A stretch of 64,000 nt of DNA from Herminiimonas contaminans (lineage in GTDB: Bacteria > Pseudomonadota > Gammaproteobacteria > Burkholderiales > Burkholderiaceae_D): positions 1 through 64,000 of the forward strand of contig NZ_JADOEL010000020.1 of assembly GCF_015645465.1 (NCBI RefSeq), in the 5' to 3' direction. A program made the position numbers and the translations under genes. Each line of letters opens with the position of its first letter. The stretch's first letter is position 1. The notes below the pieces were generated by a model. That model did no database searches and was not told where the DNA came from. It saw only the letters and a list, made by a program, of their open reading frames with translations. Positions 12,047 through 64,000 of this stretch are shown here, piece by piece.

Positions 12047-12136
12047 GTTCTGGTCCAAAGGTGGGTCGGTTTGCAGCGGGGGCGATATGGTAAAATCCGC
12101 GCTTCATTATAGCTAACTCATCGGGAAAGATTCGTC

Positions 12137-39568: not shown

Positions 39569-39593
39569 GGTATTTCCTGTCTGCATGGGTGAC

Positions 39594-43674: not shown

Positions 43675-44031
43675 TCAGCTACCGCGATAAGTCGAATAAG
43701 CCCACGGCGACACCACCAGCGGCACATGGTAATTCTGCGCGGCATCAGCAATCCCGAAAGCCAGCACCACTTCATCAACAAAGCGTGGCGACGATACAAC
43801 GGCACCCTGCTCCGCAAAGTAATCCCCGGCGGCAAATACCAATGCGTATTTGCCGACCTTCATCTCTGCTCCTTCCAGCAAAGGCGCATCGCAACGCCCA
43901 TCCTGATTGGTGACAGCTGCTTTAAGCAAAGTCCTATTACCCGCATCGTTGACTGCATACAGCGCCACTCTCACGCCTACGCCAGGTTTCCCCTTCGTAA
44001 TATCCAGCACGTGTGTACTCAGCTTGCCCAT
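43675..44031 (-). CDS. uraH: 5-hydroxyisourate hydrolase
   Basis: UraH (transthyretin-like) hydrolyses 5-hydroxyisourate to OHCU in urate breakdown. The 118-residue protein has the N-terminal KLSTHVLDITKG motif with the catalytic His and the C-terminal tetrapeptide YRGS, the hallmark that separates HIUases from transthyretins. No signal peptide is present, so it is cytoplasmic. It is divergent from puuE, with 173 bp between. Confidence 0.96.
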   Translation of the reverse strand: MGKLSTHVLDITKGKPGVGVRVALYAVNDAGNRTLLKAAVTNQDGRCDAPLLEGAEMKVGKYALVFAAGDYFAEQGAVVSSPRFVDEVVLAFGIADAAQNYHVPLVVSPWAYSTYRGS

Positions 44032-44204: not shown

Positions 44205-45155
44205 ATGAGCAAGCCAAACTACCCTCGCAATATGACCGGTTACGGTCGCACGCCACCGCACGCGCAATGGCCGGGGCAAGCTCGCATCGCGGTGCAATTT
44301 GTCCTGAATTACGAAGAAGGTGCGGAGAACTGCGTGCTGGACGGCGACGCCGGTTCCGAAACCTTCCTCTCCGAAATCATAGGTGCGCAAAGCTTCCCGG
44401 CGCGTCATATGAGCATGGAATCCATCTACGAATACGGCTCACGCGCCGGGCTGTGGCGTTTGCTGCGCATGTTTGAAGAGCGCAAATTGCCGCTGACTGT
44501 CTTCGGCGTGGCGCGTGCCTTGCAGCGCAATCCTGATGCAGTGGCCGCCTTCCGTGAGCTGGGTCATGAAATCGCCTGCCACGGCTTGCGCTGGATCAGC
44601 TATCAAAACATGGATGAAGCAACCGAGCGCAAACACATGGCAGAAGCAGTTTCCATCATCCGTGAACTGACCGGCAGCGCCCCGCTCGGCTGGTACACCG
44701 GACGTGATTCACCGAATACGCGCAGGCTGGTGATGGAACACGGCGGCTTCGCCTACGATGCCGACAGCTATGCCGACGACTTGCCGTACTGGGAACAGGT
44801 TGCCCACCGTGATGCAAACGGCAAGCAGGTAACGGCACCGCAACTGATCGTGCCCTATACGCTCGATAGCAATGACATGCGCTTCGCCGCATTGCAAGGC
44901 TTCAATTCCGGCACGCAATTTTTCGATTACCTGAAAGATGCTTTCGATGTCCTGTACCGCGAAGGTGACCCGCAAGGATTGAACCAGCCGAAGATGCTGT
45001 CAGTCGGCTTGCATTGCCGCCTCATCGGTCGTCCTGGCCGCGCGGCCGCCCTGGCGCGCTTCCTCGATTATGTACAAAACCATGAACAGGTCTGGATCAC
45101 CCGTCGCATAGACATCGCCAATCACTGGCGCGCCAGGCATCCATTCTCAAACTGA
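44205..45155 (+). CDS. puuE: Allantoinase PuuE (polysaccharide deacetylase-like)
   Basis: PuuE opens allantoin to allantoate. It belongs to the metal-independent deacetylase-fold allantoinases, unlike the AllB amidohydrolases. The 316-residue protein begins with NMTGYGRTPPHAQWPG and FVLNYEEGAENC, the family signature, and has the W-x-G-Y-x-T-GRDSPNTR segment. The Shine-Dalgarno is weak (AAAAGG). The porin gene follows 125 bp later on the same strand. Confidence 0.94.
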   Translation: MSKPNYPRNMTGYGRTPPHAQWPGQARIAVQFVLNYEEGAENCVLDGDAGSETFLSEIIGAQSFPARHMSMESIYEYGSRAGLWRLLRMFEERKLPLTVFGVARALQRNPDAVAAFRELGHEIACHGLRWISYQNMDEATERKHMAEAVSIIRELTGSAPLGWYTGRDSPNTRRLVMEHGGFAYDADSYADDLPYWEQVAHRDANGKQVTAPQLIVPYTLDSNDMRFAALQGFNSGTQFFDYLKDAFDVLYREGDPQGLNQPKMLSVGLHCRLIGRPGRAAALARFLDYVQNHEQVWITRRIDIANHWRARHPFSN

Positions 45156-45280: not shown

Positions 45281-46375
45281 ATGCACAAAATAAAACTAAA
45301 AAAGCTACAACTCGCTATGGCATTAGGTTCGGCATTCGCACTGCCGGCCATGGCACAGACTTCGGTTCAGGTCACAGGTGTGGTCGATACTTACCTCGGT
45401 TCGATGAAACAAAGCGGTGATGCAGGCCGCACCAGTTCCGTCAACGGCGGTGGCATGACCACTTCATGGTTTGGTTTCAAAGGAACGGAAGACCTCGGCG
45501 GCGGCTTGAAGGCTACCTTCAACCTGACTTCATATATCCGTAGCGATATCGGTGCGATAGGCCGATTCAACGGCAATGAAACCTTCTTTTCGCGTGATGC
45601 GAATGTAGGATTGCGCGGCAAGTTTGGCGCAATCTCGCTGGGTCGTGATTTGTCACCGAACTTCCTGCCATCAGTCATTTCCAATCCATTCGGTGATTCC
45701 TTCCAATTCTCGCCTTTGATCCTGCACAAGGATGTCCCCTTGTTCAATGCCTCGGGATGGACCAACTCGGTAGCGGGCGATACGGGTTGGAGTAATGAAA
45801 TCATGTATACCACGCCGGATATCGGCGGCCTGAAGGCGAGCATCAATTACCAGTTTGGCGAAGTTGCGGGTAAATCTGGCAAAAACAATGTCGGTGGTAA
45901 CCTGATCTATTTCAACGGTCCGCTGGCATTAACTGCTTATTACCAAAAAGTGCAAGTCAACAACCCAATGGATTTGTCGCCCAACAATGTGCAGCCGGCG
46001 ACCAATATTCCATTCGCCAGCGGCATGACGGCGGCGCGCCAGACAGCCTGGTTTGTCGGCGGCGCCTATGACTTTGCCGTCGCCAAACTGTTTGCCAGCT
46101 ATAACCAGTCGACACACGATATTGACCTGAAGGACAAGACCTTCCAGCTCGGTACCAGCATCCCGCTGGGACAAGGTGCCATCCTGGCATCCTGGGCCAA
46201 TACCAAACGCGACGGTGTAGCAGTCGGCATGGACTTGAAGCGCAATACCGCATCGTTTGGCTATGACTACAATCTGTCCAAGCGTACCGATATCTACTCG
46301 ATCTATATGTACGACAAGATCACCCAGCAATCGGCCGGCAACAGTTTTGCGGTCGGTATCCGCCATCGCTTCTGA
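45281..46375 (+). CDS. Burkholderiales-type outer-membrane porin (porin_4/OmpC-like)
   Basis: The 364-residue protein has a signal peptide ending ALPAMA-QT and a 16-strand porin pattern ending in the outer-membrane signature YDK...VGIRHRF with a terminal Phe. The start is the ATG with GGAG upstream. It lies inside the purine island between puuE and the lyase gene, so it could admit purines or allantoin; this is context only. A strong bidirectional terminator follows. Confidence 0.92.
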   Translation: MHKIKLKKLQLAMALGSAFALPAMAQTSVQVTGVVDTYLGSMKQSGDAGRTSSVNGGGMTTSWFGFKGTEDLGGGLKATFNLTSYIRSDIGAIGRFNGNETFFSRDANVGLRGKFGAISLGRDLSPNFLPSVISNPFGDSFQFSPLILHKDVPLFNASGWTNSVAGDTGWSNEIMYTTPDIGGLKASINYQFGEVAGKSGKNNVGGNLIYFNGPLALTAYYQKVQVNNPMDLSPNNVQPATNIPFASGMTAARQTAWFVGGAYDFAVAKLFASYNQSTHDIDLKDKTFQLGTSIPLGQGAILASWANTKRDGVAVGMDLKRNTASFGYDYNLSKRTDIYSIYMYDKITQQSAGNSFAVGIRHRF

Positions 46376-46401
46376 TGCCTGGCTAGCTTGCTAGCGTAAG
46401 T

Positions 46402-46437
46402 AAAAAAGGGAGTCACGTTACCGTGACTCCCTTTTTT
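46402..46437. terminator. Bidirectional terminator between porin and lyase genes
   Basis: AAAAAAGGGAGTCACG and CGTGACTCCCTTTTTT form a perfect 16-bp stem around TTAC. It serves both convergent genes. Confidence 0.94.
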
Positions 46438-46481
46438 ATGACAGGACAGCGCAGGATGCTGTCCCTCTCCCTGATTTGTCC

Positions 46482-48107
46482 TTAAACGAAATCACCTATT
46501 TTCCTGGCAACTGCGTCTCGCACAGAGCCACTGACCACAAACGATTGCGCTACCGCGATATCGTTGTGGAACCAGCGATCACCATCGAGGCAGGCTGGAA
46601 TTTGTTTGCGGATTTCAGTATAGGCAGCCTGCGTCCCCTGACCCAGCACCACACCCGGTAACAAGTCTTCGGTCATCGTCAGTGCTTGTGCTGCCAGCAG
46701 CATTTCGACACCGATGATGTACTGCGTATTCGCCACCACGGTTGCCGCCTTGCGCGCGCACCAGGTTGAATTGGAGACGTGATCTTCGCTATTACCCTTG
46801 GCCGGAATGCTGTCGACACTGCCCGGCATGCACAAGGTGCGGTTTTCCATCACCAGTGAGCTGAGCGAGCATTGCACCACCGGATAGCCGGTGTTGACAC
46901 CGCGGATACCGCTCATGAGGTTGCGTGGCAAACCCCAGGACAGGGTTGGATCGATCAGGCGGGCGACACGACGTTCGCAAATGCTGCCGAGGTCAGTGAT
47001 CGCCATCGCCAGCAAGTCCATCGCTTGCGCCAGGTACTGGCCGTGGAAGTTACCACCCGAGATGATTTCAAAGCCACCGCCCTGCTTACCAAAGATGAGC
47101 GGGTTGTCAGTCGCCGAGTTGATTTCCTTGTCGACGATGTTGTCGATGTAGTCCAGTGCATCAAAGACCGGGCCATAGACTTGCGGCGAGCAACGCAGCG
47201 AGTAGACGTCCTGGATGCGTGCGGTGTACGGGATGTCGGTACGGCGCAGTTCTTCCGGGAATTGCACTGAGCGTGCTTCATGCGTGGTACGGGTCGAACC
47301 GGACAGCAGATTGCGGATGATGGCTGCTGTTTTGATCTGGCCGGCGTGTGGACGAGCTTGCTGGATGCGGTCATCGAAGGCTGCCATTTCTGCGCGCATG
47401 GCTTCCAGCGTCAGGCCGAGTGACAGGCAGGCATCAGTCAGCAAGTTGCGTGCATCGTTAGCGACCAGTACAGCAACGGCCAGCGATGCAGTACAGCCGT
47501 TGATCAGGGCAGAAGCATCTTTGGCCTTGAGGTCAAATTTGACCGGGCCGATGTTGGCTTTGGTAATCGCTTGCGGTGCCGACATGCGCTGGCCTTGGTA
47601 CATGACTTCAGCTTCATCGAAACCTGCGATCGCAGCTGCCAGGTAAGACAGTGGTGCCAGATCACCGGAAGCACCAACCGAACCCTTTTGCGGCATGATC
47701 GGATGGATACCGGCATTGAGGAAGGCGATTAAACGATCAACTACCTCTACGCGTGGTGCCGAGTAATTGCTGGCGAAAGCATTCGCACGCAGCAGCATGG
47801 TGGCGCGGCTGACTTCTTCCGAGAACGGTTCACCCATACCGGCGCAGTGCGCCTTGATCATTTGGGTCTGGAACAGTTCAATGTTCTCGACCTTGATGCG
47901 TGTGTCTTTGAGCAAACCGACACCGGTGTTGAAGCTGTACATCATCGGTGCTTCATCATGCATCCAGGTAGCTTCGATGTAGTCGCGGCTTTCCTTCAGC
48001 GCAGCGCGCGAAGAGTCTGCCAGCGCGACCGGCAGGTGCGGTGCGCGCGCTACCGCCAGGACTTGCTCCGCTGTCAGCGTGAAACCATCGATCGTGATCT
48101 TATTCAT
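46482..48107 (-). CDS. Histidine ammonia-lyase family enzyme (MIO-type aromatic amino-acid lyase)
   Basis: The 541-residue protein is a full-length MIO lyase. The cofactor-forming Ala-Ser-Gly is A146-S147-G148 in KGSVGASGDLAPL. Residues matching the Pseudomonas putida HAL active site are present: Y57, H87, N203, Q299, Y302, R305, F354 and E441. Having both the His and the Glu points to histidine rather than Phe or Tyr as substrate. It is about 30 residues longer than typical HutH. No hutU, hutI or hutC lies nearby; it starts 47 bp after puuD on the same strand with a good AGAGGAAAC site. Its role in a purine operon is not explained. The name hutH would fit the family but the function is not certain. 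Confidence 0.86.
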   Translation of the reverse strand: MNKITIDGFTLTAEQVLAVARAPHLPVALADSSRAALKESRDYIEATWMHDEAPMMYSFNTGVGLLKDTRIKVENIELFQTQMIKAHCAGMGEPFSEEVSRATMLLRANAFASNYSAPRVEVVDRLIAFLNAGIHPIMPQKGSVGASGDLAPLSYLAAAIAGFDEAEVMYQGQRMSAPQAITKANIGPVKFDLKAKDASALINGCTASLAVAVLVANDARNLLTDACLSLGLTLEAMRAEMAAFDDRIQQARPHAGQIKTAAIIRNLLSGSTRTTHEARSVQFPEELRRTDIPYTARIQDVYSLRCSPQVYGPVFDALDYIDNIVDKEINSATDNPLIFGKQGGGFEIISGGNFHGQYLAQAMDLLAMAITDLGSICERRVARLIDPTLSWGLPRNLMSGIRGVNTGYPVVQCSLSSLVMENRTLCMPGSVDSIPAKGNSEDHVSNSTWCARKAATVVANTQYIIGVEMLLAAQALTMTEDLLPGVVLGQGTQAAYTEIRKQIPACLDGDRWFHNDIAVAQSFVVSGSVRDAVARKIGDFV

Positions 48108-48154
48108 TGCGTTTCCTCTTTATATTCTTATTTAATATCTGGCTAAGATACAGC

Positions 48155-49384
48155 TTATTTAGCACCCGCCTCAAACCAGGCACCGACCAATTTACGCTCG
48201 TCATCAGTCATATGAGTCAGGTTACCCAGCGGCATGTCCTTGGTTTGCACGGTACGCTGATAAACCCGTGCTGCGTGCTGACGTATCAATTCAGGTGTCT
48301 GCAACATCATGCCTGCAGGCGCGGTAGCAAAACCTTCAAACGTCGGCTTCGCAGAGTGGCAGTTGACGCAGCGTTGCGTAATGACTTCTTGCACCTTGGC
48401 AAAGTCAGCCGCAGCAATCGCCGCTGTGTCAGCACCCGGTACCGCAGCGACCTTGGGAGCCGGACGTGGCGCAATTGCAACGGCGACCGCCAGCAGCAAG
48501 GCAACACCAGCGATCGGATACGCAATCGATACCCGGCCCGCATGCCGCAGGTTGAAGAAGTGACGGATCAGTACACCGGCAGCCATGATCGCCGCCAAGA
48601 CCAACCAGCTGTATTTATGCGTATATGTCATCGCATAGTGATTGCTGATCATGATGAACAGCACTGGCAATGTGAAATAGTTGTTGTGCACGCTGCGCTG
48701 TTTCGCACGCTTGCCGTAGACCGGATCGGGTGACTTGCCGACTTTCATTGCTTCCACCAGCTTGCGCTGACCCGGGATAATCACCATCAGCACATTGCCG
48801 ACCATCATGGTACCTATCATCGCGCCGACGTGGATATACGCTGCACGACCGCTAAGCAAATGTGTCAGTGCGAATGATGCGGCAACGATAAATACAAACA
48901 TGACGATGCCAAGCAAGCCTTCGCGTTTGCCCAGCGGCGAACGGCACAGCAAGTCATAGACAATCCAGCCAACGACCAACGTGCCGAGACCGACACCTAT
49001 CGCCTGCGTCGAGGACAAATCGGCGACCGATTTATCTATCATCATCGCTGACGCATTGAAGTAGTAGACGATAAACAACATGGCAAAACCACTCAGCCAG
49101 GTCGCGTACGCTTCCCATTTAAACCAGTGCAATTCGGGTGGCAGCTCGGCCGGAGCGACCAGGTATTTTTGCGGATTGTAGAAACCGCCGCCGTGTACCG
49201 CCCACAACTCACCGGACACGCCTTTTTTGGCCAGTTCACTATCAGGCTTGGGTGGCCGGATCGAGTTATCGAGCCAGACGAAATAGAAGGATGCGCCTAT
49301 CCACGCGATCCCGGTGATCAGGTGCAGCCAGCGCACCAACAGGTTGAGCCATTCAACGCCGTACGATACAAATAATGCTTCCAT
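48155..49384 (-). CDS. puuD: Urate hydroxylase PuuD, membrane type with cytochrome c domain
   Basis: PuuD oxidises urate to 5-hydroxyisourate in place of soluble uricase. The 409-residue protein has about eight membrane spans of the urate oxidase N-terminal (DUF989-like) domain, then a periplasmic c-type haem domain with CVNCH near residue 340 and a likely Met ligand in KDMPLGN. Electrons would pass to the respiratory chain, avoiding peroxide. The ATG for MEALFVSYG has GGGGAAG upstream. It is first of a two-gene unit with the lyase gene. Confidence 0.95.
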   Translation of the reverse strand: MEALFVSYGVEWLNLLVRWLHLITGIAWIGASFYFVWLDNSIRPPKPDSELAKKGVSGELWAVHGGGFYNPQKYLVAPAELPPELHWFKWEAYATWLSGFAMLFIVYYFNASAMMIDKSVADLSSTQAIGVGLGTLVVGWIVYDLLCRSPLGKREGLLGIVMFVFIVAASFALTHLLSGRAAYIHVGAMIGTMMVGNVLMVIIPGQRKLVEAMKVGKSPDPVYGKRAKQRSVHNNYFTLPVLFIMISNHYAMTYTHKYSWLVLAAIMAAGVLIRHFFNLRHAGRVSIAYPIAGVALLLAVAVAIAPRPAPKVAAVPGADTAAIAAADFAKVQEVITQRCVNCHSAKPTFEGFATAPAGMMLQTPELIRQHAARVYQRTVQTKDMPLGNLTHMTDDERKLVGAWFEAGAK

Positions 49385-49804
49385 GTCTTCCCCACATTTG
49401 ACTCTCATCCGCCACGGCGCGCTCTGCAGATGAGCGGGACTATACGTCCCGACTGGCCGTATCTGCCGGTAATAATGAATATACGCAAGGAATCATGCTT
49501 GCCCTCCTCGCGCTACCGGTCATGCCGCTGCGACCTAATGCTCTCCATTCCGTACGCCCACGCAATTAAATAGCAACAGTTTGACTACCAGTTTCACTGC
49601 TACTTTTGCTTCTAGTTGCGTACAGAATGCTGGAACGATAAACGCCTACGTCGCGTAAAACATTGCACTAGCCTTATATTTGACATATCAAATTTGATAT
49701 ACAACAATGAACTCGTTATATGAGACATTCGATAAAAATTATTACTAGATCCGAATGCCTGCCTGCGCAGCAGTATTAACGGTGACAAAAACGGAGACAA
49801 AAAT
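49385..49804. promoter_or_regulatory. puuD-LysR divergent region; 16-bp palindrome within a promoter
   Basis: No gene is present. ATATCAAATTTGATAT at 49685-49700 is a perfect 16-bp palindrome. On the plus strand it fills the spacer between TTGACA (49680-49685) and AACAAT (49703-49708), a typical repressor site for the LysR gene at 49805. Near puuD a small perfect hairpin CGGGAC-TATAC-GTCCCG lies at 49435-49451. The puuD transcript start is not clear. Confidence 0.55.
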
Positions 49805-50740
49805 ATGTCCAGGCTGCCCGATCACCTCGATATACACCTGATACGTATTCTTTATTTACTGCTGTGCGAGAAAAATGTTTCGCGCGTGGCACTGAAACTG
49901 AATCGTCCACAGCCATCGATATCCGCGTCCCTGCGCAAACTGCGTGAGCTGACCGGCGATCCGCTATTGGTGCGTGGCGCGCGCGGCATGGTACCGACCC
50001 AGCACGGCGAAAGCCTGATGAAATCGGCCAAACGCATACTCGATGAGGCCGAGCATCTGTTCATACCAAAGACGGCCTTTGTCCCGCAGGAAGAAGCGCG
50101 CACCTTCCATATCGCGGCGCCGGATTATATGAATACGCAATTCTTCACTGAAGTGATAGCACGCTTGCGCCGTGAGTCGCCGAAGAGTCATATCGTGATC
50201 CATGCACTGGGACCAGAGACCGACTATGTACGCCTGTTATCAGATGGCGAACTGGATCTGGTGATTGCGAACTGGGATGAAATGCCGGAACACCTGCATA
50301 TGTCCAAACTGTTCGACGATCCTATCGTCTGCCTGATGCGTTCCGACTGCGCGTACGCCAAGCGCACCGCCAAGGATGCGATGACGATAGAGGATTACCT
50401 CAGCCTGCCGCATGCTGCGCCGTCACAAATCCTGCCCGGCTATCACGGCACTATCGATACCTATCTCGAAAAACAAAACCTGCAACGCAACATCGTGGTC
50501 GAGTCGGCGCACTTCCGCATGCTGCCTTACATGGTGGAAAAAACTGACCTGGTACTCACCGCCGGACAGCAGTTCACCAGCTTCTACGAAAAGACCCTGT
50601 CACTGAAAAGTTACAGCGTCCCCATCAAATTCCCGCCCCTGCGTTTCTATCAGTTATGGCATGAACGCGTGCATCAGGCGACTGAACACAAGTGGTTGCG
50701 CGCACAGGTAAGTGCCGCGGCGAAAGTACTTGCGGATTAA
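49805..50740 (+). CDS. LysR family regulator of the purine island (predicted)
   Basis: The 311-residue regulator has a NodD-like helix-turn-helix (NVSRVALKLNRPQPSISASLRK) and a LysR effector domain. It is divergent from puuD and directly precedes the urate/xanthine permease gene, making it the probable regulator of the island. The effector is unknown; a purine or ureide is likely by context. The site GGAGACAAAAAT precedes the start. Confidence 0.9.
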   Translation: MSRLPDHLDIHLIRILYLLLCEKNVSRVALKLNRPQPSISASLRKLRELTGDPLLVRGARGMVPTQHGESLMKSAKRILDEAEHLFIPKTAFVPQEEARTFHIAAPDYMNTQFFTEVIARLRRESPKSHIVIHALGPETDYVRLLSDGELDLVIANWDEMPEHLHMSKLFDDPIVCLMRSDCAYAKRTAKDAMTIEDYLSLPHAAPSQILPGYHGTIDTYLEKQNLQRNIVVESAHFRMLPYMVEKTDLVLTAGQQFTSFYEKTLSLKSYSVPIKFPPLRFYQLWHERVHQATEHKWLRAQVSAAAKVLAD

Positions 50741-50985: not shown

Positions 50986-52380
50986 ATGACAACCAGCAGC
51001 CATCCGGTAGATGAAATACTACCGATCCCTAAGCTCGCCGCACTTGGTATACAGCATGTTCTTGTAATGTATGCGGGTGCAATCGCAGTCCCACTCATCG
51101 TCGGTGGTGCATTAAATCTTCCCAAATCTGACATCGCTTTCCTCATCAGCGCCGACCTGTTTTGCTGCGGCCTGATTACCATTATTCAAAGTCTCGGCAT
51201 CTGGAATTTCGGCATCCGCATGCCGGTAATGATGGGCGTGACCTTCGCTGCGGTAGGACCCATGGTGGCGATGGCAGGCAATCCTTCACTGACCATCCTG
51301 CACATCTACGGGGCGGTGATCGCGTCAGGGATATTTTGTATCTTTGCCGCGTCCTATATGTGCAAACTCATGCGCTACTTCCCGCCCGTGGTAACCGGTA
51401 CTGTAATTACCATTATCGGTATCTCGCTGATGGGCGTCGGTATCAACTGGGCAGCAGGTGGACAGCCTGTGATCCACGCGATGGTTGATGGCGCGATGGT
51501 CACCATGCCGAATCCTGACTATGGCTCGCCGCTCAACCTGACCGTCGCCGCCATCGTGCTGGCCTCTATCCTGCTGATTACCAAATACGTCAAAGGCTTC
51601 ATCGCTAATATCTCGGTATTAATGGGCATGATCATCGGCTTCGTGATTGCACTGTCGCTCGGCAAAGTCAGCTTCGATGGCCTGGGCAGCACCGACTGGT
51701 TCGCGATGATCACGCCTTTCCACTACGGCTGGCCAAAGTTCGACATAGGCTCCATCATCAGCATGTGCCTGGTCATGATCGTCACCATGATTGAATCGAC
51801 TGGCATGTTCATCGCACTCGGCGACATCATCGACAAGAAAGTCGATGACAAGACCCTGGGGCGCGGCTTGCGTGTGGATGGCCTGGGTACACTCATAGGC
51901 GGTATCTTCAACACCTTCCCTTACACCTCGTTCTCGCAAAACGTCGGTCTGGTTGGGGTTACCGGCATCCGCAGCCGCTATGTCTGCGTCGCCGCCGGTC
52001 TGATCCTGGTTGCGTTCGGCCTGTTTCCGAAAATGGCGCACGTCGCCGCTTCGATTCCGCAATTCGTATTGGGCGGCGCTGGCATCGTGATGTTCGGCAT
52101 CGTTGCTGCGACCGGTGTCAAAATCCTCGGCAAAGTGGATTTCAACGGTAACCGTCATAACGTCTTCATCGTCGCGGTCAGCATAGGTGCAGGCATGATT
52201 CCTACTGTCGCGCCGTCTTTCTTCAACCAATTGCCAGACTTCCTGTCGACCATCTTCCATAGCGGCATCCTGCTGGCAACAACAACTGCAGTAGTACTGA
52301 ACCTGTACTTCAATGGTCGTGGCACGGAAGAAGATATTTCGGCATTCGCGATGGCGGCAGCACAGAGTTCGGAACACTGA
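50986..52380 (+). CDS. NCS2 family urate/xanthine permease
   Basis: The 464-residue inner-membrane symporter belongs to the NCS2 (nucleobase-ascorbate) family. GIQHVLVMYAG in the first span and the signature QNVGLVGVTGIRSR in the middle match the xanthine/urate subgroup (XanQ, UacT, PucJ) more than uracil UraA. About 12-14 spans are expected. It lies between the LysR regulator and uraD-allC, consistent with urate or xanthine uptake. Exact substrate is inferred from context. Confidence 0.9.
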   Translation: MTTSSHPVDEILPIPKLAALGIQHVLVMYAGAIAVPLIVGGALNLPKSDIAFLISADLFCCGLITIIQSLGIWNFGIRMPVMMGVTFAAVGPMVAMAGNPSLTILHIYGAVIASGIFCIFAASYMCKLMRYFPPVVTGTVITIIGISLMGVGINWAAGGQPVIHAMVDGAMVTMPNPDYGSPLNLTVAAIVLASILLITKYVKGFIANISVLMGMIIGFVIALSLGKVSFDGLGSTDWFAMITPFHYGWPKFDIGSIISMCLVMIVTMIESTGMFIALGDIIDKKVDDKTLGRGLRVDGLGTLIGGIFNTFPYTSFSQNVGLVGVTGIRSRYVCVAAGLILVAFGLFPKMAHVAASIPQFVLGGAGIVMFGIVAATGVKILGKVDFNGNRHNVFIVAVSIGAGMIPTVAPSFFNQLPDFLSTIFHSGILLATTTAVVLNLYFNGRGTEEDISAFAMAAAQSSEH

Positions 52381-52489: not shown

Positions 52490-54256
52490 ATGAGCACACT
52501 AGAACAATTGAACCGTCTGGCTGCAAGTGACGTACCGGCTTTTGTCGACGTTCTGCATGGCATTTACGAGCACTCGCCATGGATCCCTGAACGCGCGGCG
52601 AAGCTCGCACCGTTTGGCAATATCACGGCGCTCAAGCAAGCCATGCAGGGTGTCGTATCCAGTGCCACGCGCGCCGAGCAACTGCAACTCATCCGTGCCC
52701 ACCCGGAGTTAGCTGGGAAGGCAGCCATTGCGGGTACGTTGACGGCTGAATCCACCGGTGAGCAGGCCAAGGCCGGACTCAATCTGTGCTCGCCGGAAGA
52801 ATTCGCCACGCTGCAACAGCTCAATAGCGACTACAACAGCAAATTCGGTTTCCCCTTCATCCTCGCGGTCAAGGGAGCAACCGGCAAGGGCCTGACGCGT
52901 CAGCAAATCATCGCGACCTTCACCCGCCGCCTGCGCAACCAGCCGGAAGATGAATTACGCGAAGCGCTGCGACAAATCGGTCGTATCGCTGAAATGCGCA
53001 TTAATGACTTGCTCGGTTACGCGCCTGCCATCGGTGCCACCGTGATGGATTGGGCGGAAGACATCGCCGCCTGGACTGAAGACGAAGGTGCGCTGACCTG
53101 TACCTACATGAGCGATGCGCATAGACGCACCGCCAATCAAATCGCGGACTGGATGCGCGCAGCTGGCATGCATGCGCACATCGATCCGGTCGGCAATGTG
53201 GTCGGACGCTATCTGTCCACCGATCCTCGCGCCAAGACCTTAATCACCGGTTCGCATTACGACACCGTTCGCAATGGCGGCAAATACGATGGCCGCGAAG
53301 GCATCCTGCTGGCGATAGCCGTGGTCAAGCATTTGCATGAACGCGGCGAAACCCTGCCCTTCCATTTCGAAGTCATTGCGTTCGCGGAAGAAGAAGGTGT
53401 GCGCTTCAAAAGCACCTTCCTCGGCAGCAATGCAGTCATCGGTCAGTTCAATATGGAATTGCTCGACATTACCGATAAAGATGGCATCACCATGCGTGAA
53501 GCCATCACGCAGGCAGGTCATGACGTGAACGCGATTCCGCAAATCGCCCGTAATCCGGCCGACGTGCTCGGTTATGTCGAGGTACATATCGAACAGGGTC
53601 CGGTCCTGTTGCAACACGACCTGCCGGTCGGCATTGTCACTTCGATTGCAGGCAGCTCGCGTTACCAGGTTGAACTGCGCGGTGTCGCCAGCCATTCCGG
53701 TACCACGCCTATGTCGATGCGCAAGGATGCTGCGGCGGCTGCCGCTGAAATCATCCTCTACGTGGAACAGCGCTGTGCACTGGATCAGCAGGCGTCGCTG
53801 GTTGGCACTGTCGGTCAGCTGCAGGTACCGAATGGCTCTACCAACGTCATCCCGGGTCGCTGCGTATTCTCTCTGGATATACGCGCTGCGGTGGACTCGG
53901 TACGCGATGCAGCGGCCGCCGACATCCTGCAACACATAGACAGTGTTTGCGCACGTCGCAACATCGAGTACAAGGCTGAGCAAACCGTCGCCGCACCGGC
54001 CGCACCATGCGCACCGTGGCTGATGAAGCAACTGTCGGCAGCGACCGAACGCGCCGGGGTACGGCCATTTGAGCTGGCATCGGGTGCAGGTCATGATGCA
54101 ATGACCATCGCCAAGATGACCGACGTCGCCATGCTCTTCACTCGCTGCGGCAATGGCGGCATCAGCCACAATCCATTGGAAACGATGACAGCCGATGACA
54201 CCGAAGTATCAGCGCAAATCCTGTTGGATTTCCTGCGCAATTTCAAAGAAAAATAA
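52490..54256 (+). CDS. Fusion of OHCU decarboxylase (UraD) and allantoate amidohydrolase (AllC)
   Basis: The 588-residue protein combines two enzymes of the same pathway. Residues 1-165 match UraD, with YEHSPWIPERAA and HPELAGKAAI, which turns OHCU into S-allantoin. Residues from about 175 match the M20-family AllC amidohydrolase that hydrolyses allantoate: metal ligands appear in GSHYDTV, GKYDGREG, FAEEEGVRF, VHIEQGP and GGISHNPLE. The reading frame is continuous without a stop or shift, so the fusion is real in this sequence. In between in the pathway lies PuuE, encoded 8 kb away. The start follows AGGAAATAGG. Confidence 0.93.
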   Translation: MSTLEQLNRLAASDVPAFVDVLHGIYEHSPWIPERAAKLAPFGNITALKQAMQGVVSSATRAEQLQLIRAHPELAGKAAIAGTLTAESTGEQAKAGLNLCSPEEFATLQQLNSDYNSKFGFPFILAVKGATGKGLTRQQIIATFTRRLRNQPEDELREALRQIGRIAEMRINDLLGYAPAIGATVMDWAEDIAAWTEDEGALTCTYMSDAHRRTANQIADWMRAAGMHAHIDPVGNVVGRYLSTDPRAKTLITGSHYDTVRNGGKYDGREGILLAIAVVKHLHERGETLPFHFEVIAFAEEEGVRFKSTFLGSNAVIGQFNMELLDITDKDGITMREAITQAGHDVNAIPQIARNPADVLGYVEVHIEQGPVLLQHDLPVGIVTSIAGSSRYQVELRGVASHSGTTPMSMRKDAAAAAAEIILYVEQRCALDQQASLVGTVGQLQVPNGSTNVIPGRCVFSLDIRAAVDSVRDAAAADILQHIDSVCARRNIEYKAEQTVAAPAAPCAPWLMKQLSAATERAGVRPFELASGAGHDAMTIAKMTDVAMLFTRCGNGGISHNPLETMTADDTEVSAQILLDFLRNFKEK

Positions 54257-56304: not shown

Positions 56305-57666
56305 ATGTCAAAAACACTGCTCATCAAGAATGCCCGCGTACTCGTCACCATGAACGAGCAACGCGAAGAAATCAGCAACGGCGCAGTATTTATTCGCGAC
56401 AACGTAATCGAACAAGTCGGTCCCAGCGCTACGCTGCCACAGACTGCCGATGAAGTCATAGACGCCAGCCATCACGTCGTACTGCCCGGCCTGATCAATA
56501 CCCATCACCACATGTATCAAAGCCTGACGCGGGCGGTTCCTGCTGCGCAGAACGGTGAATTGTTCAACTGGCTGACCAATCTGTATCCGATCTGGGCCAA
56601 CCTGACGCCGGAAATGATCCAGGTGTCGACGCAGACTGCGATGGCGGAACTGATGCTGTCCGGCTGCACCACCAGCAGCGATCACCTCTACATCTATCCC
56701 AACGGCTGCCGCCTCGACGACAGCCTGGAAGCAGCGCAAGAGATAGGCATGCGCTTCCATGCGGCGCGCGGTGCTATGAGCGTGGGCCAGTCCAAAGGCG
56801 GTTTGCCACCGGATCGTGTGGTGGAACAGGAAGCCGACATCCTGCGCGATACGCAGCGCCTGATCGAGACTTATCACGATGCCGGACGTCATGCGATGCA
56901 GCGCATCGTGGTTGCACCGTGCTCGCCTTTTTCGGTATCACGCGACCTGATGCGCGAGTCTGCCAGCATGGCACGCAGCTTCAATGTATCGCTGCATACC
57001 CATCTGGCGGAAAACGTCAACGACATTGCTTACAGCCGTGAAAAATTCAATATGACACCAGCCGAATACGCAGAAGACTGCGGCTGGGTCGGGCACGATG
57101 TCTGGCATGCACACTGCGTGCAGCTGGACGACGCAGGTATCAATTTATTTGCTCACACCCATACCGGTATCGCGCACTGCCCTTGCTCGAACATGCGACT
57201 GGCATCCGGTATCGCACCGATACGCAAGATGCTGGATGCGGGCGTGTCTGTCGGCCTGGGCGTCGATGGCTGCGCCTCCAACGATTCCGGTCACATGATG
57301 GCCGAAGTCAGACAGGCGATGCTATTGCAACGGGTCGGCTTCGGGCCGGATGCGATGACCGCCAGGCAGGCGCTGGAAGTCGCCACGCTGGGTGGTGCCA
57401 AAGTCTTGAATCGCGACGATATCGGTGCGCTCAAACCCGGCATGTCGGCCGATATTGTCATGTTCGATGTGCGGCAAATCGGCTTCGCCGGTGCCTTGCA
57501 CGATCCGGTCGCGGCAATGGTGTTTTGCACCCCGCCAAATGTTGCCTGCAGCATCATTAATGGCCGCGTCGTCATCCGCGATGGCCAGATTACAACAATA
57601 GACCTCGGACATGTCATTGAACGCCACAATGCACTGGCATTTACGCTGGCAGAGGCGGCGCGCTAA
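56305..57666 (+). CDS. 8-oxoguanine deaminase family amidohydrolase
   Basis: The 453-residue amidohydrolase belongs to the TrzA/AtzB-like group whose Pseudomonas member Pa0142 deaminates 8-oxoguanine to urate. It shows NTHHHMYQSLTRA (metal His pair near residue 68), LHTHLAEN with the third His, and LGVDGCASNDSGHM with the catalytic Asp. FNWLTNLYPIW is typical for the 8-oxoguanine deaminase clade. Guanine deamination is an alternative. The product urate would feed PuuD directly. Confidence 0.88.
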   Translation: MSKTLLIKNARVLVTMNEQREEISNGAVFIRDNVIEQVGPSATLPQTADEVIDASHHVVLPGLINTHHHMYQSLTRAVPAAQNGELFNWLTNLYPIWANLTPEMIQVSTQTAMAELMLSGCTTSSDHLYIYPNGCRLDDSLEAAQEIGMRFHAARGAMSVGQSKGGLPPDRVVEQEADILRDTQRLIETYHDAGRHAMQRIVVAPCSPFSVSRDLMRESASMARSFNVSLHTHLAENVNDIAYSREKFNMTPAEYAEDCGWVGHDVWHAHCVQLDDAGINLFAHTHTGIAHCPCSNMRLASGIAPIRKMLDAGVSVGLGVDGCASNDSGHMMAEVRQAMLLQRVGFGPDAMTARQALEVATLGGAKVLNRDDIGALKPGMSADIVMFDVRQIGFAGALHDPVAAMVFCTPPNVACSIINGRVVIRDGQITTIDLGHVIERHNALAFTLAEAAR

Positions 57667-57818
57667 CAGGGGGATCATATAGCTACAGTCTTATAACTGA
57701 TATTCCATCTGCATTACATTAGGCAGGCAAAATTAGACGACATTAGATGCGCTGAACGACACCACGTTAGATGGTAAGCGTTGAAGCAAAAAAACATAAA
57801 AAACTCGGAGACAAGCAG

Positions 57819-59114
57819 ATGACTTTTTTGGAAAAGTTTTTCAAGCTCAGCGACCACGGTACTACCGTGCGCACGGAGCTCGTGGCAGGGCTGACCACCT
57901 TCCTCACCATGGCCTACATCATCTTCGTCAACCCAGCCATTCTGGGTGACGCGGGGATGCCCAAGGATTCCGTATTCGTCGCCACTTGCGTGGCCGCCGC
58001 CATCGGTACCCTGATCATGGGCCTGTATGCAAACTACCCTATCGGGCTCGCTCCCGGCATGGGCCTGAATGCCTACTTCTCGTATGCAGTTGTGATTGGT
58101 ATGGGCTATCCATGGCAAGCCGCCCTGGGTGCCGTATTCATCTCCGGCTGTCTGTTCATGGTAGTGAGTCTGTTCAAGATCCGCGAGCTGATTATCAACA
58201 GCATTCCGGTGTCGTTACGAACGGCGATTCCCGCGGGTATCGGCCTCTTCCTTGGACTGATCGCGCTGAAAAATGCCGGTATCGTCGTCGGCAATCCTAA
58301 TACGCTGGTCACACTCGGTAACTTGCACAGCCCCCCAACAGTACTGGCCATCATCGGTTTTGTCGTGATCGTCGCACTGGATAGACTGAAAGTCCGTGGC
58401 GCGATGCTGATCGGCATCCTGGCCGTGACCGTACTGAGCTTCTTCTTTGCGGGTAACAAATTCGCCGGTGTGTTTTCGGCGCCACCGTCAGTCTCACCTA
58501 CCCTGTTCCAGCTGGATATCCCTGGCGCACTGGGCATGGGCCTGATCAACGTCGTGCTGGTCTTTTTCCTGGTTGAATTATTCGATGCCACCGGCACCCT
58601 GATGGGTGTGGCGCAACGTGCGGGTCTGGTCAAAAACGGCAAGATCGAACGCCTGAACAAAGCCCTGCTGGCAGATAGCGGCGCCATCATAGCCGGTTCC
58701 ATGCTTGGCACTTCGAGTACCACCGCCTATATTGAAAGTGCCGCTGGTGTACAGGCAGGTGGTCGCACCGGCCTGACTGCCGTCACCATCGCTGTCCTGT
58801 TCCTGCTGGCCCTGTTTATTGCACCACTGGCTGGCGTGGTTCCGGCATACGCAACAGCTCCGGCTTTGTTCTTTGTGGCTTGCCTGATGTTGCGTGAACT
58901 GCGTGACATCGATTGGGAAGACACCACCGAATGCGTACCGGCAGTGATTACCACCATCATCATGCCTTTCACTTATTCGGTAGCAAACGGTATGGCACTC
59001 GGCTTCATCACCTATGCCGCACTGAAGTTGCTGACCGGTCGTGCCAAGGAAGTGTCGTTCATGATCTGGATTATTGCAGGCTTGTTTACCGTCAAGTTGG
59101 TCTTGTTGGGCTAA
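57819..59114 (+). CDS. AzgA-type adenine/guanine/hypoxanthine permease
   Basis: The 431-residue membrane symporter belongs to the AzgA/GhxP/PbuG group of NCS2-fold transporters, with GLNAYFSYAVV and LFDATGTLMGVA as family marks. It would import guanine and hypoxanthine, substrates of the neighbouring deaminase and xanthine dehydrogenase. The ATG for MTFLEKFFKL with GGAG upstream is chosen over a longer frame. A hairpin follows. Confidence 0.92.
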   Translation: MTFLEKFFKLSDHGTTVRTELVAGLTTFLTMAYIIFVNPAILGDAGMPKDSVFVATCVAAAIGTLIMGLYANYPIGLAPGMGLNAYFSYAVVIGMGYPWQAALGAVFISGCLFMVVSLFKIRELIINSIPVSLRTAIPAGIGLFLGLIALKNAGIVVGNPNTLVTLGNLHSPPTVLAIIGFVVIVALDRLKVRGAMLIGILAVTVLSFFFAGNKFAGVFSAPPSVSPTLFQLDIPGALGMGLINVVLVFFLVELFDATGTLMGVAQRAGLVKNGKIERLNKALLADSGAIIAGSMLGTSSTTAYIESAAGVQAGGRTGLTAVTIAVLFLLALFIAPLAGVVPAYATAPALFFVACLMLRELRDIDWEDTTECVPAVITTIIMPFTYSVANGMALGFITYAALKLLTGRAKEVSFMIWIIAGLFTVKLVLLG

Positions 59115-59234: not shown

Positions 59235-60719
59235 ATGTCAGAACCGATACGCTTTTACTTCCGCGGCACCACACACGAAGTGAGTGGTCTTTCCAATACG
59301 CGTACCGTCTTGCAGCACCTGCGCGAAGACCTGCATTGCACCGGCACCAAAGAAGGTTGTGCCGAAGGTGACTGCGGTGCGTGCACCGTGGTAGTCGGCG
59401 AACTGCGCGGCGATCATCTCGAACTCAATACCGTCAACTCCTGCATACAGTTTTTACCAACGCTGGACGGCAAGGCACTCTTCACAGTCGAAGACCTGAA
59501 GCAAAACGATGGCTGCCTGCATCCGGTGCAACAGGCGATGGTCGAATGCCACGGCTCACAATGCGGCTTCTGCACACCAGGCTTCATCATGTCCTTGTGG
59601 AATCTGTATCTGCACAATGATGATGGCAGCACCGCACCAAGTACACGACAAGTAGACGATGCACTGTCCGGAAATCTGTGCCGCTGCACCGGCTACCGTC
59701 CCATCATCGAAGCGGCGCACCGCATGGGTGAATTGCCAGCCGTCCATTTCGACCGCACACAAGTGGCAGATGCGCTGCGCGAATTGCAACGACATGAGCC
59801 ACTCAGCATCAGCTACGCTGGTCAAACCTTCCACGCACCGCGCACCATAGAACAACTGGCAGCACTGCGCGCCGAATTGCCTAAGGCACGCATACTGGCA
59901 GGCTCTACCGACGTCGGCCTATGGGTCACCAAACACATGCGCGACCTCGGGGACATCATTTACCTCGGCCAGGTCGATGCACTGAAAAGCGTCAAGGAAG
60001 AAAACGGCTGGCTGGAAATCGGCGCAGGCGTCACACTGGAAAATGCGTATGCAGCAGCCGCCCAGCACTACCCGCAAGAGCTATCAGAGCTGTGGCAACG
60101 CTTCGCCTCGCTGCCAGTACGCAATGCCGGTACGCTGGGTGGCAATGTCGCCAACGGTTCACCTATCGGCGACTCCATGCCATGGCTGATTGCGCTCGGC
60201 ACACACATCGTCTTGCGCAGCGTCGCAGGTGTACGCAGCATGCCGCTGGAAGATTTTTATCTGGCTTACCAAAAATCGGCCATGCAGCCAGATGAATTCG
60301 TGCAGGCAGTACGCATACCATTGCCACGTCCTGACGTCGCATTCCGCGTCTACAAACTATCGAAACGTTTCGACCAGGATATCTCGGCGGTTTGTGCCTC
60401 CTTCGCGTTTGAACTGGTCGATGGCCAGGTAAGGGATGCGCGCATCGCCTACGGCGGCATGGCGGCCACGCCTAAGCGCGCAGCGCAAGCCGAAGCGGCA
60501 CTCAATGGAAAGGCATGGAGCGAAGCCAATGTACGCGCGGCGATAGCGCTGCTGGCACAGGACTATGCACCACTCTCCGATATGCGCGCCTCATCCGCTT
60601 ATCGCATGAAGACGGCACAGAATCTTTTATATCGCTACTGGCTGGAAACACGTGCAGATGCGCCGGTACCGGCGAGCTCTTTGCGCGCCTTTGCAGCAGC
60701 AACAGCTGAGACTGCCTGA
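59235..60719 (+). CDS. xdhA: Xanthine dehydrogenase small subunit (2Fe-2S and FAD)
   Basis: XdhA carries the two 2Fe-2S clusters and FAD of the molybdenum enzyme. The 494-residue protein has cluster ligands C42, C47, C50 and C70, then C110, C113, C149 and C151 (CGFCTPGF and [10 protein letters not shown]). The FAD domain follows from about residue 190, with the nucleotide motif near [14 protein letters not shown] and [18 protein letters not shown]. It is first of xdhABC. Confidence 0.96.
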
Positions 60720-60735
60720 GGAAATCAGGAGGAAT

Positions 60736-63108
60736 ATGATGAACAAGCAAACCGAATTATTCATGACTGATACATTACCTGGCAGCGGTACACCCGGCGG
60801 CAAGGCAGTCGGCACCTCTTATGCGCATGAGTCCGCTTACCTGCACGTCACCGGCGAAGCGACCTACACTGATGACATCCCCGAGCTGCAAGGCACCTTG
60901 CACGCGGCACTGGGCCTGTCGCAAAAGGCCCATGCCAAGATAGTTTCCATCGACCTTAGCAAAGTCCAGGCCGTACCTGGCGTAGTCGCCGTGCTGACAG
61001 CGGCCGACATCCCCGGTGAAAACCAGTGCGGCGCGATCATACGCGACGATCCGGTGCTGGCCGAAGACCTGGTGCAATACATAGGACAACCTATTTTCGT
61101 CGTCATCGCCAACAGCCACGACACGGCACGCCGTGCTGCACGCCTCGGTGTCATCGAGTATGAAGAACTGCCACCGATACTGACGCCACGTGCGGCCCAT
61201 GCTGCGCAATCCTATGTGCTGCCACCTATGCATTTGCAACGCGGCGATGCGGCGACTGCGTTTGCAGCTGCACCGAATAAGCTGCAAGGAAAATTCGACG
61301 TCGGCGGACAAGAGCAGTTCTATCTGGAAGGCCAGATCTCCTACGCCATTCCAAAAGAAGGCAGCGGCATGCACGTACATTGCTCGACGCAACACCCGAG
61401 CGAAATGCAGCATCACATTGCCCACGTCCTGCATGTGTCTTCGCACGACGTACTGGTGGAATGCCGCCGCATGGGCGGTGGCTTCGGCGGCAAGGAATCG
61501 CAATCGGCACTGTGGGCCTGCGTCGCCGCATTCAGTGCAGCCCGTTTGCGTCGTCCAGTCAAACTGCGCGCCGATCGCGACGACGACATGATAGTCACCG
61601 GCAAGCGCCATTGCTTCGCCTATGACTATGAAATCGGCTATGACAATAACGGCCTGATCCTGGGTGCACGCATAGACATGATCTCGCGTGCAGGTTTCTC
61701 TGCCGACCTGTCCGGTCCGGTGGCAACCCGCGCGGTCTGTCACTTCGACAATGCCTACTATCTGTCGGATGTTGAAATTCACGCCATGTGCGGCAAAACC
61801 AATACCCAGTCGAATACCGCCTTCCGCGGTTTTGGTGGCCCGCAAGGTGCGATTGCGATCGAATACATCATCGATGAGATTGCGCGCAATCTCGGCAAGG
61901 ATGCACTCGAAGTACGACGCATCAACTTCTACGGCAGCAGCGATGGCGACGGCCCGGATGCACGCAATGTCACGCACTACGGTCAAAAGGTAGAAGACAA
62001 CATCATCCACGCGCTGGTCGACGAACTGGAAGCCACCAGTGAGTACCAGGCTCGCCGCAATGCGATCAATGCATTCAACGCGTCGAACACCATCCTAAAA
62101 AAAGGCCTGGCACTGACGCCAGTGAAATTCGGTATCTCGTTCAACGTACCGCACCTGAACCAGGCGGGCGCATTGGTACACGTATATACCGATGGTTCGG
62201 TTTTGGTGAACCACGGCGGTACTGAAATGGGCCAGGGCCTCAACACCAAGGTCGCGCAAGTCGTGGCACAGGCATTGGGTCTGCAACTGGATAAGGTGCG
62301 CTGCACCGCTACCGACACCAGCAAGGTCGCCAACACCTCGGCCACGGCAGCCTCAACTGGTACCGACCTCAACGGTAAAGCGGCACAGCACGCAGCACTG
62401 CAAATCCGTGATCGCCTGGCCAGCCTGGCAGCACAGCGCTTTGGCGTCGAGGTCGCGAGCATACGTTTTGCCGACGACAAAGTGAGCTCTGGTGCGCACA
62501 GCATAGACTTCCAGGAACTGGTCATGCTGGCTTATACCGCCCGTATCCAGCTCTGGTCTGACGGCTTCTACTCAACCCCACGCGTGCACTGGAACAGCAA
62601 GACCATGCAAGGTCATCCGTTCTACTACTACGCTTACGGTGCGGCCGTGGCCGAAGTGGTCATCGATACACTGACCGGCGAATGGAAATTGCTGCGCGCG
62701 GATGCGCTCTACGATGCAGGCGAAGCATTGAATCCGGCCATCGATGCAGGCCAGGTGGAAGGTGCTTTCATCCAGGGCATGGGCTGGCTCACGACCGAAG
62801 AATTGTGGTGGAATAAGGACGGCAAACTGATGACGCATGCTCCTTCGACCTACAAGATTCCGGCGATCTCGGACTGCCCGGCTGACTTCCGCGTCAAGCT
62901 CTTCAAGAACAGCAATGTGCAGGACAGCATCCACCGTTCGAAAGCCGTCGGTGAACCGCCGCTGCTGTTACCGTTCTCGGTCTTCTTCGCAATCCGTGAT
63001 GCAGTGGCCGCCGTTGGTAACAATCGCGTCAATCCGCCTTTGCGCGCACCGGCCACCAGCGAAGCTATCCTTGATGCAGTCGACGCCGTGCGCGCCGCCA
63101 TCCAATAG
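60736..63108 (+). CDS. xdhB: Xanthine dehydrogenase large subunit (molybdopterin)
   Basis: XdhB binds the molybdenum cofactor and oxidises hypoxanthine and xanthine to urate. The 790-residue protein has GGGFGGKE at residues 247-254, AFRGFGGPQG at 362-371 with the substrate-binding Arg, EMGQGLNTK, and the catalytic Glu E740 in VGEPPLLLPF. The start is the ATG at 60736 (or 60739) behind AGGAGG; the longer frame overlapping xdhA is a shadow. It starts 16 bp after xdhA. Confidence 0.96.
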   Translation: MMNKQTELFMTDTLPGSGTPGGKAVGTSYAHESAYLHVTGEATYTDDIPELQGTLHAALGLSQKAHAKIVSIDLSKVQAVPGVVAVLTAADIPGENQCGAIIRDDPVLAEDLVQYIGQPIFVVIANSHDTARRAARLGVIEYEELPPILTPRAAHAAQSYVLPPMHLQRGDAATAFAAAPNKLQGKFDVGGQEQFYLEGQISYAIPKEGSGMHVHCSTQHPSEMQHHIAHVLHVSSHDVLVECRRMGGGFGGKESQSALWACVAAFSAARLRRPVKLRADRDDDMIVTGKRHCFAYDYEIGYDNNGLILGARIDMISRAGFSADLSGPVATRAVCHFDNAYYLSDVEIHAMCGKTNTQSNTAFRGFGGPQGAIAIEYIIDEIARNLGKDALEVRRINFYGSSDGDGPDARNVTHYGQKVEDNIIHALVDELEATSEYQARRNAINAFNASNTILKKGLALTPVKFGISFNVPHLNQAGALVHVYTDGSVLVNHGGTEMGQGLNTKVAQVVAQALGLQLDKVRCTATDTSKVANTSATAASTGTDLNGKAAQHAALQIRDRLASLAAQRFGVEVASIRFADDKVSSGAHSIDFQELVMLAYTARIQLWSDGFYSTPRVHWNSKTMQGHPFYYYAYGAAVAEVVIDTLTGEWKLLRADALYDAGEALNPAIDAGQVEGAFIQGMGWLTTEELWWNKDGKLMTHAPSTYKIPAISDCPADFRVKLFKNSNVQDSIHRSKAVGEPPLLLPFSVFFAIRDAVAAVGNNRVNPPLRAPATSEAILDAVDAVRAAIQ

Positions 63109-63122
63109 CAAGGAGTCACGCT

Positions 63123-64000
63123 ATGTCTACATGGTTAGAAGCGTTGCAAACAACTGTACCGGCACAGGAAACTTGCGTGCTGGTGACAGTTGCAGGCATC
63201 CAGGGCTCAACACCACGCGAAGAAGGTGCCCGCATGGTGTACACAGCGACCCGGCAATTCGACACCATAGGCGGCGGTCATCTCGAATGGCGCGCCGCAC
63301 AGATTGCACGTGACATGCTGGCCGACAGCACACCGACCCGCCGTATGAACCACATCGAACGCATCGCGCTGGGCCCCAGCCTGGGTCAATGCTGTGGCGG
63401 TGTGGTCTTCCTTGCCTTTGAAATCATAGAGCAACGTGCCGCCGCCATGCTCAGTGGTCTGGCACGCGGTTGCAAGGAGGGCGTGAACATATGGCGCGCG
63501 GTGCCACTGGAAACGAATGATGCAGCCGTGCTTTACGATCTCAAGGGCAGCACCTGTAATGCAAGTTCGGCGGTTGATGCCTTGACTCCGGATATGTTCC
63601 TGTCCAGGAGCGCGACCCATATCGCACGTGATACCCAAGGTCGCCGCTGGTTGCTGGATCTGTGCCAAGCGCATTTACCGCAAGTCGTCCTGTTTGGCGC
63701 CGGGCATGTAGGTACGGCCATCGTACGCATGCTGAGTACGCTGCCATGTCGCGTCCTGTGGGTAGACGAACGGGAAGACATGTTCCCTGCTGATTTACCT
63801 ATGCAGGTCACGATAGATGCGACCGATGTACCGAATGCCGTCGTTGCAAAAGCTGAGCCTGGTGCCTACTTCCTGGTGATGACGCACAGTCATTCACTGG
63901 ACCAGCAGTTGACCGAGCAAATCCTCAAGCGCGAAGACGTCGCCTGGTTTGGCCTGATCGGCTCCTATACCAAACGCAAGCAATTCGAACATCGCTTGCA
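63123..64000 (+). CDS. xdhC: Xanthine dehydrogenase accessory protein XdhC, cut by window end
   Basis: XdhC binds and sulfurates the molybdenum cofactor and inserts it into XdhB. About 292 codons lie in the window and no stop is reached. The N-terminus (MSTWLEALQT) is followed by VTVAGIQGSTPREEGARMV, a glycine-rich IGGGHLEWRAA and LGQCCGGVVFLAFE with the conserved cysteine pair. A Rossmann-like part follows (VVLFGAGHVGTAIV) and FGLIGSYTKRKQF near the window end. AAGGAG lies seven bases upstream of the ATG, and the gap to xdhB is 14 bp. Confidence 0.94.
   Translation, partial: MSTWLEALQTTVPAQETCVLVTVAGIQGSTPREEGARMVYTATRQFDTIGGGHLEWRAAQIARDMLADSTPTRRMNHIERIALGPSLGQCCGGVVFLAFEIIEQRAAAMLSGLARGCKEGVNIWRAVPLETNDAAVLYDLKGSTCNASSAVDALTPDMFLSRSATHIARDTQGRRWLLDLCQAHLPQVVLFGAGHVGTAIVRMLSTLPCRVLWVDEREDMFPADLPMQVTIDATDVPNAVVAKAEPGAYFLVMTHSHSLDQQLTEQILKREDVAWFGLIGSYTKRKQFEHRL

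Follow-up and report, generated by a model that had tools for sequence, protein, structure and literature searches.

A histidine ammonia-lyase-like enzyme encoded behind puuD as a candidate ureidoglycine ammonia-lyase of bacterial purine breakdown

Why should a gene resembling that of histidine ammonia-lyase (HAL, HutH) stand in a purine-breakdown operon? The question arises from a 64,000-nucleotide stretch of Herminiimonas contaminans (positions 1 to 64,000 of contig NZ_JADOEL010000020.1, our C20; hereafter the window), part of a 4.04-Mb, 100% complete assembly of 56 contigs. Here a 541-residue ammonia-lyase of the 4-methylideneimidazole-5-one (MIO) type is encoded at 46482..48107 on the minus strand, directly behind puuD, which encodes the membrane cytochrome-c urate oxidase (48155..49384, minus strand; PF06181, 474 bits). 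We are confident that the lyase has a role in the purine-ureide pathway and is not an ordinary HutH. That ureidoglycine is its substrate, so that it would work as a ureidoglycine ammonia-lyase replacing the aminohydrolase AllE, we regard as an evenly balanced proposition. More tentative still is the proposal in its full form: an (S)-ureidoglycine ammonia-lyase of HAL lineage that would carry out an MIO elimination across a C-N bond (not a C-C bond) of a non-aromatic substrate, would replace AllE without being homologous to it, and would alternate with an M20 hydrolase that uses the same intermediate.

The lyase gene is separated from puuD by a 47-bp spacer (48108..48154, minus strand) with an AGAGGA ribosome site just ahead of its ATG; the open reading frame (ORF) list starts puuD at 49408, and the Met at 49384 better fits the starts of homologues. 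A promoter and terminator scan of 46300-50000 returned sites no commoner than in shuffled sequence. PF00221 (530 bits) is the sole Pfam domain of the product, which is also the only PF00221 match of a profile search over the whole assembly. Aligned with Pseudomonas putida HAL (1gkm; 38% identity), the protein retains the MIO triad A142-S143-G144 together with Y53, H83, N195, Q277, Y280, R283, F329 and E414, which bears out an earlier, sequence-only reading of this DNA that described a full-length MIO lyase with all HAL active-site residues 47 bp after puuD, on the same strand and with a ribosome site. Among family rows (the window plus 79 loci of more than 70% identity), these residues are retained in every row with a letter at the position (79-80 of 80; 79 of 80 for the first Ala of the triad), as they are in all four rows that represent other families of the phylum. 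A passage in a study of Geobacillus HAL (PMC11432326) states that mutating Y52, H82, N194 or E411 abolishes activity; if these are taken as the equivalents of Y53, H83, N195 and E414, their retention suggests that the catalytic machine works and that HAL activity may still be possible.

The pocket around these residues differs from that of HutH. Ser82, Met382, Gln413 and Met419, carried by 4/4 HutH references, are Ala, Pro, Ser and Asn in the window lyase. The first change, seen at the outset as an Ala-His in place of the usual Ser-His, proves to mark the whole subfamily (78 of the 80 family rows and 4/4 other-family rows have Ala), as does Asn at 419 (79 of 80 and 4/4); position 413 is Ser or Ala across the subfamily, and position 382 is Pro, Thr or Ala. 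Relative to 1gkm, the insertions consist mainly of 14 residues at 279-292, the others being small. Against the HutH equivalog model TIGR01225 the lyase scores 493 bits, under the NCBIfam cut-off of 539. An AlphaFold model has a mean predicted local distance difference test score of 75, with the active-site stretches 142-146, 388-406 and 430-445 below 50; because the active site is poorly modelled, we do not use the model to infer pocket geometry.

The tie to purine breakdown, which the sequence-only reading had left unexplained, is real. Among 80 related loci, whose lyases share 74-98% identity, the gene lies directly behind puuD in 52 and directly behind the gene for allantoate amidohydrolase (AAH) in 19; the contig start cuts six loci, and three (L004, L046, L078) have neither neighbor. 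Where 1.5 kb or more of upstream sequence is available (74 loci), the direct upstream neighbor is puuD or AAH in 71, which points to a step after AAH. The gap from the puuD hit to the lyase start has a median of 48.5 bp (range 15-553, n = 52 loci), and one locus (L006) holds a predicted operon of NCS1 permease, Asp/Glu/hydantoin racemase, allantoinase, AAH and lyase. The same pairings recur at 54-60% lyase identity in other families of the phylum (f78 and f86; loci L101-L104): puuD and lyase are paired in L103 and L104 (lyase 54-55%, PuuD 41%), the latter with a hydroxyisourate hydrolase alongside, and AAH and lyase in L101 (lyase 60%). The closest relative among the matches listed, at 98% protein identity, is from Herminiimonas sp. 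KBW02.

Paralogues connect the two settings. Eight genomes carry two lyase copies, the first behind puuD and the second behind AAH (in the pair that includes L004, the locus of the second copy is of the AAH type but has lost its AAH), and these copies are 97.0-99.4% identical, against 85-88% for same-context comparisons between different genera (six comparisons). At the DNA level, a shared tract of about gene length is 92.7-98.2% identical in those eight pairs and a ninth (the set includes L105/L106), against 81-83% between genera (five comparisons). On the tree described below, at least 11 changes between puuD and AAH contexts are needed (31 rows, L004 left out). We take this pattern to reflect gene conversion or duplication on repeated occasions, and hence a single function common to both operons.

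The hut genes, in turn, are missing. A search for hutU found no match anywhere in the assembly, and tblastn for hutI, hutG and hutF within the window yielded one 26% match, of the HutF query on an 8-oxoguanine deaminase, in keeping with the original remark that no further hut gene is visible in the 64 kb. At 1e-20, hutU, hutI, hutG and hutF were found in 0/88 stretches carrying the lyase (3.0-21.6 kb, eight of them under 10 kb, some sharing one genome); the same search detected hutU in 6/6 control loci, one being the query's own source. The neighborhood survey that had been proposed as a check, with complete hut operons named as the contrary outcome, thus showed none in these 88 stretches.

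The proposed phylogeny against characterized HAL gave a concordant answer, placing the lyase in a separate, fully supported clade. In a tree of 48 rows, whose HutH and TAM rows drew a long-branch warning from the program, the lyase clade (support 100/99) comprises 37 rows: the window, 31 loci that belong to its family or lie near it, an Acidobacteriota metagenome-assembled genome (MAG) and four genomes of other families. P. putida HAL and six HutH rows, three annotated and three from beside hutU, form a HutH clade of their own (support 100/99); one Bacillota HutH falls outside both. Sister to the lyase clade, at 44-45% identity, are two proteins (L093, L150) encoded on plasmids of Allorhizobium ampelinum S4 and Agrobacterium vitis. 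Locus L078, from a Holophagaceae MAG with a 74% identical lyase, holds an apparent C-terminal piece of a class V aminotransferase at 11875-12225.

We counted lyase, AAH, hutU, AllA, AllE and the hydrolase introduced below in 145 genomes of the family (Oxalobacteraceae). The lyase occurs in 42, AAH in 95, hutU in 68 and AllA, above cut-off, in 17; AllE (TIGR03214) is above cut-off in 0/145, the weak cupin matches in 47 genomes all falling below it. AAH is present in 40/42 genomes with the lyase and 55/103 without (p 2.7e-7; this and all other p-values treat genomes as independent), and the two lyase genomes without AAH are 80% and 89% complete assemblies. Genomes with an AllE-type enzyme would likewise be expected to carry AAH. 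No positive link to hutU appears, with 19/42 lyase genomes and 49/103 others carrying it (p 0.86), and among the AAH genomes those with the lyase have hutU less often than those without (19/40 vs 41/55, p 0.0097). AllA is commoner in AAH genomes with the lyase (11/40 vs 2/55, p 0.0015), an enrichment to which we give little weight because the 11 genomes fall in three genera.

Most AAH genomes that lack the lyase have another gene, often in its slot behind puuD or AAH. This is M20x, an uncharacterized ArgE/DapE-type M20 hydrolase unrelated to the lyase, which at E values up to 1e-70 is found in 73 of the 145 genomes, every one of them with AAH, and in 50 of the 55 AAH genomes without the lyase; one gene or the other is present in 90/95 AAH genomes vs 2/50 others. 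By genus, the lyase occurs in 15, AAH in 29 and M20x in 20, with two AAH genera having neither lyase nor M20x. Twelve AAH surroundings from genomes without the lyase held M20x in nine cases, seven directly behind puuD and two directly behind AAH; M20x was not nearby in the other three, two of whose genomes carry it elsewhere, and it matched none of the lyase loci compared with it. Four further stretches added two of each arrangement, for totals of nine puuD-M20x loci (L121-L125, L127, L129, L136, L141) and four AAH-M20x loci (L119, L120, L152, L153). M20x is found no more than 15 kb from AAH in 39 genomes, and the lyase occurs in 0/39. Inside AAH genomes, M20x is rarer with the lyase (23/40 vs 50/55, p 1.9e-4). 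Strict mutual exclusion over whole genomes is ruled out by the 23 genomes that hold both; only AAH-linked M20x is exclusive. Nine both-carrying genomes were examined at their M20x stretch: eight showed no purine-pathway query match among the matches listed, and in one (G144) M20x follows a second puuD, so that LysR-puuD occurs twice in this genome, followed by M20x in L136 and by the lyase in L151. The window's own genus includes two genomes with AAH and lyase, three with AAH and M20x, and three with none of them. The AAH context, the M20x exchange and the gap at ureidoglycine all go beyond the sequence-only reading.

That gap suggests a reaction. From the sequences, each reaction between guanine and (S)-ureidoglycine appears to have a candidate gene in the cluster; the lyase alone, among the enzymes of its purine block, has no assigned role. 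In E. coli the cupin AllE removes ammonia from ureidoglycine, and AllA then splits ureidoglycolate (the annotations being ureidoglycine aminohydrolase and ureidoglycolate lyase); neither has a match in this genome. Ureidoglycine is the only alpha-amino acid on this route and needs its ammonia removed, and its ureido N-H occupies the position of the beta C-H of histidine; on these grounds we propose an MIO elimination. The upstream enzymes lead from purines via urate (oxidized by PuuD), 5-hydroxyisourate, 2-oxo-4-hydroxy-4-carboxy-5-ureidoimidazoline (OHCU), allantoin and allantoate to (S)-ureidoglycine, the product of AAH, and the lyase would take over the AllE step on this product. Its MIO group would capture the alpha-amine, ammonia would be eliminated between C-alpha and the ureido N-H to give a carbamoyl-imine, and hydration of this imine would yield ureidoglycolate, which would decay or be split to glyoxylate and urea. 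Passages in two papers (PMC3793230, PMC3527362) describe the decay of ureidoglycolate to glyoxylate and urea as spontaneous. The lyase would be at most a functional analogue of AllE, sharing with it the proposed reaction and the dependence on AAH; AllE belongs to a different fold family, with a cupin model, whereas the lyase has PF00221 only and no TIGR03214 match.

Several observations weigh against this proposal. No recognized purine neighbor accompanies the lyase in L102, and none was detected in L004 or L078. Over the 145 genomes lyase and M20x are distributed independently (p 0.58), with 23 genomes holding both, and five of the 95 AAH genomes (G010, G025, G051, G071, G105) have neither gene; these may have a third solution for ureidoglycine or may be incomplete. 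A transaminase route from ureidoglycine (UGXT/PucG) may do the same work. All residues essential in characterized HAL are retained, Glu414 included, which keeps an imidazole substrate plausible, and the sister plasmid lyases adjoin ErtD/ErtE-type genes (scored for L093). No MIO enzyme is known to have a non-aromatic substrate.

The retained residues are an argument for a true HAL recruited for nitrogen scavenging, which would be co-expressed with the purine genes while urocanate is excreted or used elsewhere. The nearest solved structures, moreover, are HALs by sequence (293 bits to P. putida HAL) as by fold, the best PDB fold matches of the AlphaFold model being P. putida HAL. We nonetheless consider this reading unlikely. 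The genome lacks hutU, hut genes are absent from all 88 lyase stretches, hutU has no positive link to the lyase over the 145 genomes and is rarer with it inside AAH genomes, the pocket changes extend through the subfamily, and the slot is shared with an M20 hydrolase, not an expected substitute for HAL. The lyase has the HutH fold (TIGR01225; P. putida 1b8f/1gkm), MIO triad and catalytic residues; it differs in clade, in its score below cut-off, in Ser82Ala, Met382Pro, Gln413Ser and Met419Asn, in the 14-residue insert, in its purine neighbors and in the absence of hut genes. It is thus a member of the MIO superfamily that shares one of five testable marks of HutH, the triad with the catalytic residues, and lacks four: the TIGR01225 score, the HAL-type pocket, the link to hutU and a place in the HutH clade. 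An ordinary HutH belonging to a scattered hut regulon is ruled out by the missing hutU and by the distribution. Two explanations had been offered for the pairing with puuD, nitrogen-scavenging co-control and a different substrate; the latter fits better, because the lyase follows AAH and not hutU and because an unrelated hydrolase takes the same slot in other genomes.

It is similarly improbable, in our estimate, that the lyase has some other ureide-pathway substrate or a helper role, for instance with an off-path isomer or adduct produced by AAH or with a histidine-like by-product of urate oxidation, leaving ureidoglycine to a transaminase or to spontaneous decay. The genomic evidence for the pathway would be the same, and the retention of imidazole-type residues would be accommodated. 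The sister clade also lends this reading some support, since it adjoins ErtD/ErtE-type hydantoin and carbamoyl-glutamate hydrolases: like members of the lyase clade, the Allorhizobium/Agrobacterium enzymes follow genes for a ring-opening amidohydrolase and for a carbamoyl hydrolase of the M20 type, although these partners score (in L093) as hydantoin-5-propionate and N-carbamoyl-Glu hydrolases and the plasmid lyases retain Ser82, Gln413 and Met419. Against it, puuD or AAH directly upstream in 71/74 loci points to a post-AAH step, and we know of no such by-product pathway. At L093 and L150, the ErtD- and ErtE-scoring genes (scanned for L093) precede the MIO lyase, with an ABC transporter and a phosphoenolpyruvate mutase family gene nearby and no urocanate hydratase among the listed features; the L093 lyase scores 540.5 bits to TIGR01225, just above the cut-off of 539. 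Judging by these neighbors, the ancestral function may have lain nearer to histidine or ergothioneine.

An ergothionase or other ergothioneine-pathway enzyme is very improbable. Ergothionase, an MIO enzyme that eliminates an amine from a histidine derivative, shares the fold (6s7j, from Treponema denticola, is among the sequence and fold matches), and the Agrobacterium/Allorhizobium relative adjoins ErtD/ErtE-type genes; the lyase is nevertheless distant in sequence (180 bits to 6s7j vs 293 to P. putida HAL) and has different partners, namely allantoinase and PuuD, and the two partner hydrolases scanned score as AAH (529 and 532; cut-off 479) and not ErtE (352 and 347; cut-off 520). A chance neighbor or annotation artefact, for which we found no supporting point, can be dismissed, the lyase being 74-98% identical in 80 loci and 54-60% in other families with mostly the same neighbors.

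The lyase gene sits in a block of purine-breakdown genes. Divergent from puuD is a LysR-type regulator (49805..50740, plus strand; HTH_1, LysR_substrate), likewise placed in most loci that pair puuD with the lyase or with M20x. Beyond the lyase lie a transthyretin-like 5-hydroxyisourate hydrolase (43678..44031, minus strand; tblastn 74% over 118 residues to the L129 homologue) and the PuuE allantoinase (44205..45155, plus strand; TIGR03212, 532.7 bits, above cut-off). On the other side, all on the plus strand, follow an NCS2 xanthine/urate permease (50986..52380; TIGR03173, 538 bits, above cut-off), a fused OHCU decarboxylase-AAH, the ureidoglycine-forming enzyme (52490..54256; TIGR03164 and NF006775, above cut-off), the 8-oxoguanine deaminase (56305..57666; NF006055, 758 bits, above cut-off), a PF00860 permease that we take to be of the adenine/guanine type (57771..59114), and ORFs at 59235..63998 that, by reading of the sequence, are probably xdhA, xdhB and the start of xdhC. 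A guanine deaminase lies past the window end (L092, 4254-5564; TIGR02967, 583 bits). Separately, two adjacent large, repetitive autotransporter-like ORFs occupy 36803-39643 and 39594-43328, both on the minus strand, with a listed overlap of some 50 bp at their ends; the first is probably listed with a GTG start too far upstream.

A literature search, judged from titles, abstract openings and passages, found among the papers listed no earlier report linking an MIO lyase to PuuD or to ureides. Two unrelated enzymes occupying one operon slot, within the window's genus and once within a single genome (G144), make an unusually clear natural experiment. If the proposal is true, the label histidine ammonia-lyase would be wrong for a whole bacterial clade, MIO chemistry would be extended to a non-aromatic gem-diamine, and the MIO lyase and M20x would become candidate enzymes for the missing final steps of aerobic purine-ureide breakdown in Oxalobacteraceae.

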